From NCBI GenBank assembly GCA_913052485.1, contig CAJXDN010000007.1, forward strand, positions 1-55,319: 55,319 nt of DNA, in the 5' to 3' direction. Positions 11,817 through 16,394 of the stretch are shown here, piece after piece. This DNA comes from an uncultured Flammeovirgaceae bacterium. Lineage in GTDB: Bacteria > Bacteroidota > Bacteroidia > Cytophagales > MED-G16. Each line of letters begins with the position of its first letter. Position 1 is the first letter of the stretch. Below the pieces are notes generated by a model. The model worked only from the letters and a program-made list of their open reading frames with translations, was not told the origin of the DNA and did not search any database. The translations under genes were made by a program, and so were the position numbers.

Positions 11817-12521
11817 ATGAATGATCAGTCAAATAAACCAGAACATATAGCTATAATAATGGATGGTAACGGGAGGTGGGCAAAAAATAGAAATAAAAAC
11901 AGAATAAAAGGACACATAAAAGCCAGAAAAAGTGTGAGGGAAAGTATTGAGTTTTGTGTAGAAAAAAAAATTAAATATCTATCACTTTTTGCTTTCTCAA
12001 CTGAAAATTGGAGCCGACCAAAAATCGAAGTTAAAGCTCTAATGAATTTATTAAATAGTGTTATCGAAGAAGAGTTAAATAACCTAATTGACCAAAACAT
12101 TAAATTTTTAACAATTGGCAATATATCAGAGCTACCTCAAATCACAAGAAATAGTATTGAAATTGCAAAAGAGAAAACAAAAGGTAATGACGGCCTTAAC
12201 TTAATTTTGGCAATAAACTACTCTGGAAAATGGGATATAATAAATGCAATCAAAACCCTTTATAAATCAAAAAAAAGAAAAGATTTAAATAATTTTAACG
12301 AAAAAACTTTTGAAAAATATCTTTCTACGTATAATATTCCAGATCCAGAACTTATAATTAGAACAAGTGGTGAGGAACGAATTAGTAATTTTTATCTTTG
12401 GCAAGCTGCATATTCAGAGCTATACTTTACAGATATTTTATGGCCAGATTTTAACAAAAAAGAATTAAATAATGCTATTTTCGAGTTTGAAAAAAGAAAC
12501 AGAAGATTTGGAAAGATTTAA
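11817..12521 (+). CDS. uppS: Undecaprenyl diphosphate synthase (isoprenyl transferase)
   Basis: A 234-residue cis-prenyltransferase that adds isopentenyl units to farnesyl diphosphate to make the C55 lipid carrier for peptidoglycan and O-antigen. Seen: EHIAIIMDGNGRWAKNR with catalytic Asp16, LSLFAFSTENWSRP, and the C-terminal RTSGEERISNFYLWQAAYSE. In the usual RxxxxxxGHxxG segment the second Gly is replaced (IKGHIKARKS), a mild variant. A -7-like box TAACTTTA (11805-11812) ends 4 bases before the ATG, so a second, leaderless start of transcription is possible. bamA begins 4 bases after the stop. Confidence 0.95.
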   Translation: MNDQSNKPEHIAIIMDGNGRWAKNRNKNRIKGHIKARKSVRESIEFCVEKKIKYLSLFAFSTENWSRPKIEVKALMNLLNSVIEEELNNLIDQNIKFLTIGNISELPQITRNSIEIAKEKTKGNDGLNLILAINYSGKWDIINAIKTLYKSKKRKDLNNFNEKTFEKYLSTYNIPDPELIIRTSGEERISNFYLWQAAYSELYFTDILWPDFNKKELNNAIFEFEKRNRRFGKI

Positions 12522-12525
12522 TATC

Positions 12526-15321
12526 ATGAGATTTTATATAATAATATCAGTTGTTTTATTGGGTTTTAGCTATAAATCTTTCTCACAAATAAGGTATAAT
12601 CTCAATAATGATCAACAAATTGCTATAAGTTATACAAACCCTAAAACATATGAGGTAGCTGAAATAAAAGTTGAGGGTGAGAAATATTTGGATGAGATAG
12701 CATTAAAATCTCTAGCTGGGATAAAAGTTGGTGACAAAATTTCTATACCTGGAGAAGCAATTTCAGGAGCAATTAAAAAATTATGGAAACAAGGAATAAT
12801 TGGGGACATAAAAATAATTGTGAATAAAATTGAAGATGAAAAAGTTTATATCTCAATAGTTTTAAAGGAAAGACCCAGACTAAGTACATTTGAAATCAAT
12901 GGGATAGGGAGGACTCAAAAGTCAGAGTTAACTGAGAAAATAAATCTTATAAGGGGAAGAATTGTAACAGACGCAGTAATTAAGAATACACAAAACACAA
13001 TTGAAAACTATTTTAAAAAGAAAGGCTTCTTCAATACTATAGTTGACGTAAAACAAGAAATAGATACAATAGTATCCAACAGTATAAAGCTCAAAATCAA
13101 TGTTAGCAAAAGCAAAAAAGTTAAATTCAATAATATAAACTTTATTGGAAATAGCGAATTCTCTGATGCAAAATTAAAAGGTAAACTCAAAAAATCAGGA
13201 GAGAGAGTTAGGATACCAATATTCAAAGAAATATTCAATAAATCAACTGAACTATTTAAACCAAAAAATTTATTTGGAAGTAAAAATGGAGTTTCGTTTA
13301 AAGATCTAACAAAATTTATAACAGATAATGCTAAAATTAATCTCCTAAAATCAAGTAAATATATAACCTCAGAACTTGAAAATGACAAGGACAACTTAAT
13401 CTCATTCTACCAATCCAAAGGTTACAGGGATATTAAAATAATAGAAGAGAAAATTTCAAGAGATGGTGATTATGTCGACCTCGAGTTAACTTTAAAACCT
13501 GGAAATCAATATTTTTTTAGGAATATAAATTGGACAGGAAATTATATCTACAATGAGGACTTACTCAATGAAGTCCTAGCAATCTCTAAAGGAGACGTTT
13601 ATGACACAGAGACTCTTGATAAAAAAATAACATATAACCCTAAGGGTTCTGACGTGTCATCTCTATATCAAGATAATGGTTATCTCTTCTCAAATATACA
13701 ACCAATTGAAATTGGCATAGTAGGAGATTCAGTCGATATTGAGATGAGAGTATACGAAGGAGCTCAAGCTACAATTAACAAAATTTTTATTAAGGGAAAT
13801 GACAGAACAAGTGATCATGTTATAAGAAGGGAGTTAAGAACTATACCCGGTCAGAAGTATAATCGATCAGAGCTAATTAGGACTCAGAGAGAGCTGTCAC
13901 AATTAGGCTATTTTGATCCCGAGAGTATAAACCCAATCCCGGTTCCTAATCCACAAAATGAGACAGTTGATATAACCTGGGAACTTGCTGAAAAACCTAG
14001 CGATCAAGTTGAATTGTCTGGAGGGTGGGGAGGTTACTTTGGTTTTGTTGGTACTGTAGGACTAAGTTTTAGTAATTTTTCAGTAAAAAATATTAAAGAT
14101 TTTAGTAAATGGAGACCGTTACCTGTGGGTGATGGTCAAAAACTATCAATAAGAGTACAAGCAAATGGCAGGCAATACCAATCCTATTCATTTACCTTCT
14201 CAGAGCCATGGCTAGGTGGTAGAAAGCCAAATAACTTCAGTATCAATTATAGCTATTCTGTGAATAGGATGTTAGACTTCTTCGGAAGTGGAAGCTATAA
14301 TCCATATGGTGGATATGGAGGGTACGGTGGATATGGAGGGTACGGTGGATATGGAGGATATGGTGGATATGGTGGATATGGTGGATATGGTGGATATGGA
14401 GGGTACGGTGGATATGGTTATGGGGGACAATCCTCAAAGGACAGTAAAATAATTGGATCAATGAAAGTTCACGCTGTGACTATAGGTCTAGGAAGAAGAG
14501 TTGTTTGGCCCGATGACTTTTTTATAATTTCCAACTCTCTACTCTACTATAATTATGACCTCTTTAACTTTGGCCAATCCCTAGGTTTTGATACAGGTAT
14601 AACAAATACGGTAGCATTCAAAACTAATATATCCAGGAACAGTGTTGATAACCCAATGTTCCCAAGAAGTGGGTCAATGTTCTCACTTGACTTAGCAATA
14701 ACTCCACCCTACTCTAAATGGAATAATATAAACTATGAAACTGCTGAACCACAAGAAAAATATAAGTGGGCAGAGTATCATAAATGGATGATCGACACAA
14801 AGTTTTATACAAGAATAATTGGTGATTTAATCCTTGAATCTCGTGCACACTTTGGTTATATAGGATCTTACGGTGATGAAAAAAAAATTGGTCCGTTTGA
14901 AAGGTTTTATCTAGGGGGAGATGGCCTCTCCGGATCATATAGCAATTTCTTACTCGGAACAGAGAGAATTGCATTAAGAGGTTATGAAAATAATTCACTA
15001 GTCCCATATGACATCGAGAGAAATATTAGAGGGGGAACAATTTACAATAAATTTGTTTTCGAGTTGAGGCATCCCATCTCGCTTAATCCCAACGCAACAA
15101 TTTTTGGATTAACTTTTGTTGAGGCAGGAAACAATTGGAATTCACAAAAAGATTTTAATCCATTTGATCTTTACAGATCTGCTGGACTAGGTGTTAGAAT
15201 TTTCATGCCAGCTTTTGGGCTTCTTGGTATTGATTGGGGCTATGGTTTTGATAAATTACCTGGTCAGCCAAATAGGTCTGGGCCACAATTCCATTTTTCA
15301 ATTGGACAGCAACTCAGATGA
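12526..15321 (+). CDS. bamA: Outer membrane protein assembly factor BamA
   Basis: The central barrel of the BAM complex, which folds and inserts outer membrane proteins. From ATG 12526 it has 931 residues with signal peptide MRFYIIISVVLLGFSYKSFS; the longer upstream reading frame (from 12472) would destroy the signal peptide and is rejected. POTRA domains fill about 40-490 (for example AEIKVEGEKYLDE, and GNDRTSDHVIRREL near 425). The Omp85 barrel follows, with GLGVRIFMPAFGLLGIDWGYGFD near the C-terminus. Unusually, residues 594-629 are twelve Tyr-Gly-Gly units, placed between a strand after the first periplasmic turn (SEPWLGGRKPN) and the strand IIGSMKVHAVTIGLG, so most likely in an extracellular loop. 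The gene follows uppS by 4 bases and its stop overlaps the next start (ATGA). Confidence 0.95.
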   Translation: MRFYIIISVVLLGFSYKSFSQIRYNLNNDQQIAISYTNPKTYEVAEIKVEGEKYLDEIALKSLAGIKVGDKISIPGEAISGAIKKLWKQGIIGDIKIIVNKIEDEKVYISIVLKERPRLSTFEINGIGRTQKSELTEKINLIRGRIVTDAVIKNTQNTIENYFKKKGFFNTIVDVKQEIDTIVSNSIKLKINVSKSKKVKFNNINFIGNSEFSDAKLKGKLKKSGERVRIPIFKEIFNKSTELFKPKNLFGSKNGVSFKDLTKFITDNAKINLLKSSKYITSELENDKDNLISFYQSKGYRDIKIIEEKISRDGDYVDLELTLKPGNQYFFRNINWTGNYIYNEDLLNEVLAISKGDVYDTETLDKKITYNPKGSDVSSLYQDNGYLFSNIQPIEIGIVGDSVDIEMRVYEGAQATINKIFIKGNDRTSDHVIRRELRTIPGQKYNRSELIRTQRELSQLGYFDPESINPIPVPNPQNETVDITWELAEKPSDQVELSGGWGGYFGFVGTVGLSFSNFSVKNIKDFSKWRPLPVGDGQKLSIRVQANGRQYQSYSFTFSEPWLGGRKPNNFSINYSYSVNRMLDFFGSGSYNPYGGYGGYGGYGGYGGYGGYGGYGGYGGYGGYGGYGGYGYGGQSSKDSKIIGSMKVHAVTIGLGRRVVWPDDFFIISNSLLYYNYDLFNFGQSLGFDTGITNTVAFKTNISRNSVDNPMFPRSGSMFSLDLAITPPYSKWNNINYETAEPQEKYKWAEYHKWMIDTKFYTRIIGDLILESRAHFGYIGSYGDEKKIGPFERFYLGGDGLSGSYSNFLLGTERIALRGYENNSLVPYDIERNIRGGTIYNKFVFELRHPISLNPNATIFGLTFVEAGNNWNSQKDFNPFDLYRSAGLGVRIFMPAFGLLGIDWGYGFDKLPGQPNRSGPQFHFSIGQQLR
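14305..14412 (+). repeat. 9-bp tandem repeat, 12 units, encoding Tyr-Gly-Gly in bamA
   Basis: Twelve in-frame 9-bp units (TATGGTGGA and close variants TATGGAGGG, TACGGTGGA, TATGGAGGA), followed by TATGGTTATGGGGGA. Units 7-10 are identical; the other units differ only at third positions of codons, so selection holds the YGG protein motif. Some units also form an 18-bp higher-order pair (TATGGAGGG plus TACGGTGGA). Length changes by slippage would keep the frame. Confidence 0.97.
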
Positions 15322-15839
15322 TCAGATTAATAATATTATTATTTTTTACAATTATTTCATTAAATTCCTATTCACAAAAATTTGGATACGTTAATTCAGA
15401 GTTTATATTAAATTCTATGCCTGAATATAAAGAGGCATTTTCTGAAATTGAAAACCTTTCTAAAGCGTGGGAGAAGGAGGTAAGTGAAATGTACATTGAT
15501 GTTGAAAAAAAGGAGGTGATTTTAAAAAATGAGGAAATATTATTGACAAAAGAAATGTATGAAGAAAAAAGAATCGAACTAGACGAGGAATGGAATGAAG
15601 TTAGGAGCTACCAACAGAAAGTATTTGGCTTTGAAGGTTTATACTTTTTGAAAAAAAAAGAACTTATTCAGCCTATACAAGACATTTTATTTGAATCAAT
15701 CGAGAGAGTAGCAAAGAAAAACAGATTACAAATAATTTTTGATAAATCATCTGAACCAGTTTTATTATATACAAATCCGATTCATGACTACACTGATTAT
15801 GTTTTGGAAGATTTAGGACTAACTGAAAAAAATATATAA
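15318..15839 (+). CDS. OmpH/Skp-family periplasmic chaperone (first copy)
   Basis: A 173-residue exported protein with signal peptide MIRLIILLFFTIISLNSYSQ. The mature part opens with KFGYVNSEFILNSMPEYKEA, the conserved start of the OmpH/Skp family, followed by a charged coiled-coil hairpin (about 45-125) and the closing strand region LQIIFDKSSEPVLLY. Skp proteins hold unfolded outer membrane proteins in the periplasm and pass them to BamA. The start overlaps the bamA stop by 4 bases. A second family member follows, giving the bamA-ompH-ompH order common in Bacteroidota. Confidence 0.9.
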   Translation: MIRLIILLFFTIISLNSYSQKFGYVNSEFILNSMPEYKEAFSEIENLSKAWEKEVSEMYIDVEKKEVILKNEEILLTKEMYEEKRIELDEEWNEVRSYQQKVFGFEGLYFLKKKELIQPIQDILFESIERVAKKNRLQIIFDKSSEPVLLYTNPIHDYTDYVLEDLGLTEKNI

Positions 15840-15860
15840 TTTTGGGTAAATTTTATAAAC

Positions 15861-16394
15861 ATGAAAAACATTAAACTAATATTAATAAGCCTTTTACTTA
15901 TATCTCAAAATATTCTTTCACAAGAAATAAAAATAGGCTACACAAATGTTGAATATATTCTAAGTTTCTTACCAGAAACAAAACAAGTACAGAGTGAGGT
16001 TACAGCCTACGGTACTCAATTGCAAAATCAACTTCAATCTAAGATAACTGACTTTCAAAGCAAGGCAGAAACTTTTCAACAAGCAGCCGCTACAATGACT
16101 GACTTAATTAGAGCTGACAAACAAGAGGAACTCCAAAATTTACAGGCTTCAATTCAAAAGTTTCAAACTGAGGCTCAGACATCTATAGCTCAGAAGGAAC
16201 AAGATTTATTTAAACCACTTTTCGAAAAGATAAGCAACGCTATTAATGTCGTTGCTGAAAGAGAAAACTATTCACACATTTTCAGTGCTGGGGTCCCTGG
16301 TGTTGAAGTTCTACTTTATGCAAGACCAACCGATGACGTTTCAAGTTTAGTATTAGTAGAATTAGGCATTGACCCACCTGTAAATAACAATTAA
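15861..16394 (+). CDS. OmpH/Skp-family periplasmic chaperone (second copy)
   Basis: A 177-residue exported protein with signal peptide MKNIKLILISLLLISQNILSQ, then IKIGYTNVEYILSFLPETK, as in the first copy. The coiled-coil arm here is rich in Gln and Ala (about 55-120), unlike the Glu/Lys-rich arm of the first copy, so the two may hold different clients. A -7 box TAATTTTG (15837-15844) overlaps the end of the first copy and lies 16 bases before this ATG, so it may also be transcribed separately. It ends 3 bases before the convergent oxygenase gene. Confidence 0.9.
   Translation: MKNIKLILISLLLISQNILSQEIKIGYTNVEYILSFLPETKQVQSEVTAYGTQLQNQLQSKITDFQSKAETFQQAAATMTDLIRADKQEELQNLQASIQKFQTEAQTSIAQKEQDLFKPLFEKISNAINVVAERENYSHIFSAGVPGVEVLLYARPTDDVSSLVLVELGIDPPVNNN

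Follow-up and report, generated by a model that had tools for sequence, protein, structure and literature searches.

BamA is essential and builds the outer membrane. In an uncultured Flammeovirgaceae bacterium its third extracellular loop (EL3) carries a tandem array of Tyr-Gly-Gly (YGG) units, and the length of this array varies among relatives. Slippage alters the DNA of the array while purifying selection holds the Tyr-Gly-Gly motif, a conclusion that is well supported by the comparison of species, and the array length varies by whole in-frame units. Tandem arrays of glycine plus an aromatic residue (or methionine) seem to have arisen several times in EL3, in scattered Cytophagales.

The array is situated in a stretch of 55,319 nucleotides (the window) belonging to a draft genome that is 1.19 Mb long and 78% complete. 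Relatives of the same clade have been deposited as uncultured Marinoscillum sp., Flammeovirgaceae, Cytophagales and Rhodothermaeota MED-G19 draft genomes, and the clade is taken to be one of marine Cytophagales. The gene and its neighbours are arranged as follows.

11817-12521, plus strand: uppS (undecaprenyl diphosphate synthase), directly upstream of bamA, from domain and profile matches.
12526-15321, plus strand: bamA, 931 amino acids, with a signal sequence, POTRA domains and a 16-stranded barrel, from profiles and an AlphaFold2 model.
15318-16394, plus strand: two consecutive OmpH/Skp-like genes downstream (15318-15839 and 15861-16394), the first matching PF03938, the second by resemblance only.

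The mechanical open reading frame of bamA begins at 12472, and the ATG at 12526, just past the end of uppS, is the likelier start. With this start, which gives 931 amino acids, the numbering of the repeats as residues 594-629 in the first-pass annotation is right. The identification of the gene as bamA in that annotation is confirmed by a TIGR03303 match at the equivalog level (312.6 bits against a cut-off of 297.15), by Pfam matches to POTRA and Omp85 domains, and by the best structural matches, which are BamA proteins of Bacteroidota. The 16-stranded barrel follows the POTRA domains, as seen from the strands of the AlphaFold2 model and from fold matches to solved BamA structures. The nearest solved relatives are 9n2d-f from F. 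johnsoniae, 9hiv from B. thetaiotaomicron and close entries. The genome also encodes another Omp85-family protein, a 483-residue frame (L002; G000:C8:39661-40521), which is without a YGG array.

The array consists of twelve YGG units followed by YGYGG, in frame in bamA and exact to the base as first annotated.

14305-14412, plus strand: twelve tandem YGG units with a 9-bp period, from the sequence and TRF.
14314-14349, plus strand: 18-bp higher-order unit TATGGAGGGTACGGTGGA, in two adjoining copies, from the sequence.
14359-14394, plus strand: four identical 9-bp units TATGGTGGA (units 7-10), from the sequence.
14413-14427, plus strand: YGYGG, a degenerate last unit, from the sequence and comparison with relatives.

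Units 1 and 7-10 are TATGGTGGA, units 2, 4 and 11 are TATGGAGGG, units 3, 5 and 12 are TACGGTGGA, and unit 6 is TATGGAGGA; all differences between them are synonymous. The four identical units reported earlier stand, and their block is the most recent-looking expansion in the array. The order of the codon variants is slightly higher than was then described, the 18-bp unit being present three times, with its third copy at 14395-14412. Several congeners also have YGYGG or a relative of it. Among the tandem repeats that TRF finds in the window, the array ranks far ahead, with a score of 160 against 57 for the next best (12.8 copies of period 9), and its GC content is 50%, compared with 31% for the window.

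The AlphaFold2 model was made from 23 BamA sequences. It has a mean pLDDT of 71.6 and a pTM of 0.46, the low value of the latter being ascribed in part to flexible parts. Barrel strands are predicted at residues 494-501, 507-516, 539-547, 551-560, 570-583 and 642-658, with the loop 584-641 following the strand 570-583. Barrel strand 1 runs outward from the periplasmic POTRA side, so that the loop after strand 5 would be EL3.

14206-14232, plus strand: PWLGGRKPN, periplasmic turn T2 (beta4-beta5), a conserved anchor upstream of the loop, from the AlphaFold2 strand order and invariant columns.
14275-14448, plus strand: EL3, residues 584-641 (58 amino acids), from the AlphaFold2 strand order and the match to the position of EL3 in B. 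thetaiotaomicron.

The prediction, which had been proposed as a check on the topology, thus models the repeat between strands 5 and 6, facing outward according to strand order and homology. The outward orientation given in the first-pass annotation is retained. Its placement in the second extracellular loop is ruled out by the strand order, and the array is assigned to EL3 (beta5-beta6). The assignment, founded on strand order and homology, agrees with phmmer, which aligns the YGG array with the BamA loop of B. thetaiotaomicron. The T2 turn contains the invariant alignment columns P561, W562, G564 and G565, and the T1 turn, here residues 517-538, agrees with the long T1 of F. johnsoniae (PMC12611786). 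EL3 is composed of 50% Gly and 29% aromatic residues, with a single Asn. Its pLDDT is about 22-36 over most of its length, consistent with disorder, which pLDDT alone cannot prove.

Fifteen genomes of the family were searched. A bamA match was found in 13 of these, and a Tyr/Gly array is present in EL3 in all 13. The array core is 26-47 residues long in seven intact genes. L004/L041 has seven YGG units plus YGYGG, compared with twelve units in the window, and some relatives have LGG, MGG or FGG units. Alignment of the bamA genes of relatives and counting of the units, as suggested at first, showed that array lengths differ between species. Searching at the codon level for three successive YGG units gave matches in the window genome and in 12 of the 15 family genomes, each time in bamA only, and a reversed-pattern control gave no matches, which sets the array apart from chance. 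A genome-wide habit of YGG is ruled out within the family by this restriction to bamA.

Matches to YGG across the class are not further cases of BamA; apart from one in another protein, they fall in kinases. These are Wzc-like polysaccharide tyrosine kinases of five further Bacteroidia genomes (L194, L195, L196, L197 and L198, 3-kb loci of G486, G520, G519, G567 and G701). The YGG array there forms the C-terminal tail or a near-terminal part and directly follows a Tyr cluster (SKYYYNRYSYGYYGGYGG...), with additional residues beyond the array in L198. The codon array is similar to that of the window, but the carrier is unrelated and lacks BamA homology. In another Bacteroidia genome a 553-residue frame without BamA homology (L192; G591:C61, around 10165) has a YGG-rich stretch in Asn/Tyr-rich surroundings.

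The assemblies of relatives are often broken at the array: contigs of G007, G009 and G014 end inside it, and G003 has a run of N. In the related draft G005, bamA is frameshifted exactly within the YGG array (L047, the same as L013/L016; G005:C29 near 10774); since bamA is essential, an error of assembly is likelier here than a genuine allele. Such breaks are expected of the short-read assembly of a repeat, perhaps one that is polymorphic in length, and are no proof of polymorphism. They might also be taken to mean that the array is itself an assembly artefact or a chimera. However, long contigs of several relatives span the whole array, at lengths that differ between them, some of these relatives being single-cell genomes, as their isolate names suggest, and the array occurs in three genera. 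An artefact is therefore extremely improbable and, for the feature as such, refuted by the arrays of the relatives, the count of twelve units being that of the assembled sequence. That the array is genuine is shown by the arrays of differing length in each of the 13 family genomes in which bamA was matched.

The dominant unit differs by species. It is TACGGTGGT in L005 and TATGGTGGA in L004 and L014; the array of L007 alternates between TATGGTGGC and TAYGGAGGT, and that of L017 is all-GGA. A dominant unit of each species' own is the mark of homogenisation by slippage or unequal exchange. The codon variants among distinct xGG units within arrays comprise 50 synonymous and 8 amino-acid-changing ones, units with a replaced Gly being excluded from this count, as against about 30% synonymous expected from single-base changes; the P values are only indicative, because the units are not independent. 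Without filtering, only 6 of the 275 core residues of the seven intact arrays are other than Tyr or Gly. The synonymous turnover, the kept motif and the species-wise homogenisation together give good support to the earlier suggestion that both selection and slippage act on the array.

The lengths of the BamA loops were compared in an alignment of 148 barrels from Cytophagales and other Bacteroidota, the sample of the latter being limited; Bacteroidales loops entered the comparison from the PDB alignment and published papers only. EL3 is short in most of these proteins, with a median of 8 residues by the strand limits of the model. Gly-rich loops of at least 20 residues are confined to EL3, where 18 proteins have one; the 14 remaining loops and turns have none, which rules out a general tendency of BamA loops to Gly-rich expansion. 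YGG units occur in the family of the window (f1) and in genera g56 and g93 of f10, FGGG or FGGGG units with some Leu in L021, L027, L028 and L030, and GM units in L019. Charged residues make up 0-9% of the long Gly-rich EL3s, compared with 21% of the short ones. Length variation in some lineages extends to EL4 and EL5, whose expansions are never Gly-rich. In another Bacteroidota lineage (L177 and L178, from G365 and G312) EL3 has a Tyr cluster (GLYDYYYYDLYGLPLPPDSLL) and is not Gly-rich.

A maximum-likelihood tree was calculated for 63 proteins with the EL3 columns left out, and a stricter Gly-rich label, carried by 14 proteins, was placed on it. The label changes state seven times, six of the changes being forced by well-supported branches, a count that cannot separate gains from losses. 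A single clade of all Gly-rich EL3 loops is rejected (p-AU 6e-74), excluding a common origin for all of them. A clade uniting just the YGG groups, two in number, is rejected less firmly (p 0.04, a weak rejection), and these two may have a common origin. The different repeat units across lineages speak for separate expansions.

These observations bear on the possibility that slippage is simply tolerated. EL3 would then be the one loop in which added residues are harmless, and 9-bp repeats would grow and shrink in it, solubility and flexibility being all that is asked of them. The species-specific homogenisation and the in-frame changes of length agree with this, as do the short EL3 of most relatives and the varying lengths of EL4 and EL5. 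Nevertheless, the variants are overwhelmingly synonymous, the array stands out from the window in GC content, separate lineages reach a similar make-up of Gly plus hydrophobic residues with few charges, and Gly-rich expansion is never seen in EL4 or EL5. We consider harmless slippage a somewhat unlikely, though serious, explanation.

Loops of related composition are known from Bacteroidales. EL3 has 13 Tyr in 38 residues in B. thetaiotaomicron, and that of P. gingivalis has 12 among its 39; the loop has no cryo-EM density in either and probably projects inside the dome (PMC12578637). Across 861 homologues EL3 is enriched in Tyr, Gly and Asn, and the B. thetaiotaomicron loop was described as flexible and probably not binding other BAM subunits, its function being called unclear in 2025 (PMC12578637). 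No described function for EL3 was found in the literature searched, subscription papers being mostly outside its scope. The first-pass annotation had called the loop of the window unusual, which is true insofar as most sampled Cytophagales have a short EL3, but not for the phylum, in which a Tyr/Gly/Asn-rich EL3 was already published (PMC12578637).

The window EL3 resembles the B. thetaiotaomicron and P. gingivalis loops (PMC12578637; PDB 9hiv) in being the same beta5-beta6 loop of BamA, rich in Tyr and Gly, long and, to judge by very low pLDDT here and missing density there, probably flexible. It differs in having 58 residues rather than 38-39, and in being a perfect tandem of YGG with turnover at the DNA level and almost no Asn, whereas the published loops are irregular in Tyr, Asn and Gly. 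As the Asn enrichment, a trend in the logo and not a requirement, is not found in it, the window EL3 is called a variant of the Tyr-rich EL3 and, given the published loops, a tandem version of something already known. Three aspects were not found described in the literature searched and are new in this sense: the perfection of the tandem, its homogenisation species by species, and recurrence in EL3 only. The BamA of F. johnsoniae (9n2d-9n2f; PMC12611786) is the closest solved BamA overall. It has a short EL3 and, unlike the window BamA, an extra beta-sheet domain in EL5 that binds BamM (PMC12611786).

The eL3 of B. (Phocaeicola) vulgatus is the same loop, likewise long and of low complexity, with 44 residues of which half are Tyr and Asn (PMC8546649). 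Mutations that make Bacteroidales resistant to bacteroidetocin map to where eL3 begins and to the eL2 and eL4 rims (PMC8546649). The resistance-determining Asp of B. vulgatus is at the strand-loop border, outside the repeat; D584 of the window protein is near there and may be its equivalent. The positions of these mutations, together with the differences in array length between species, would fit a surface shield, in which EL3 forms a flexible bristle that hides the conserved rim of the BamA barrel from phages, bacteriocins and antibodies and in which length alters access. However, the targets of attackers usually diversify in amino acids, whereas the motif is nearly invariant across species here. 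The published position of EL3 is, moreover, under the lipoprotein dome, which may already shield BamA, and a search gave no phage or bacteriocin acting on the group of the window. Such a shield is unlikely.

In composition alone, repeats of Gly and Tyr are also reminiscent of structural and adhesive proteins, and the loop might be an adhesive or silk-like element that binds other cells, polysaccharide or particles. There is only one short loop per BAM complex, probably inside the dome in the published complexes (PMC12578637), and runs of at least three YGG codon units occur nowhere else in the genome, making an adhesive role highly improbable.

The explanation that we favour, to which we give slightly less than an even chance, is that the EL3 array, situated beneath the extracellular dome of BAM, acts as a flexible loop of the sticker-and-spacer kind. 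As proposed for the Tyr-rich EL3 of Bacteroides and Porphyromonas, the array would project into the cavity under the lipoprotein dome, with the aromatic residues acting as stickers and the glycines as spacers. Its contacts, weak and promiscuous, would be with outer loops and hairpins of client barrels that have yet to fold; alternatively, it may fill and guard the cavity. What counts would be composition and rough length rather than the exact sequence, so that slippage would be tolerated and different lineages could use YGG, FGGG, FGGGG or GM. Counting against the sticker-and-spacer loop, most sampled Cytophagales and Flavobacteriia have a short EL3, and the loop is thus dispensable for BAM in general.

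A FadL-family protein that scores above the Pfam cut-off is a candidate BamG of the window genome (78% complete), with no sequence match to the solved BamG in the PDB. Its gene (L216; 1342-2892, minus strand, G000:C6) adjoins one for a secreted-looking protein of 445 amino acids with a long low-complexity Ser/Arg/Gly tail (L217; 4975-6312, minus strand), whose C-terminal 264 residues have no Pfam match. In the 78% of the window genome that is represented, neither BamH nor a dome subunit could be identified, and the surroundings of the FadL-family gene hold no clear candidate for BamH.

FG-repeat nucleoporins are likewise disordered, with aromatic or Leu stickers spaced by Gly and few charges. 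They are alike at most in action: there is no kinship, the window loop is far shorter, and there is no evidence of cohesion. An extended form of the proposal, that EL3 is a recurrently invented FG-nucleoporin-like chaperone loop in which Gly-spaced aromatic (or Met/Leu) stickers fill the BAM cavity and hold client loops soluble during barrel closure, with slippage tuning its length, is decidedly doubtful.

Tandem arrays that recur in EL3 only, under strong codon constraint, present a testable comparative problem, as relatives with and without the loop exist. Whether composition, length or sequence is the decisive variable becomes separable by comparison. Since BamA is a target of bacteriocins and antibacterials, it would be useful to know by what its outer face is guarded or occupied.
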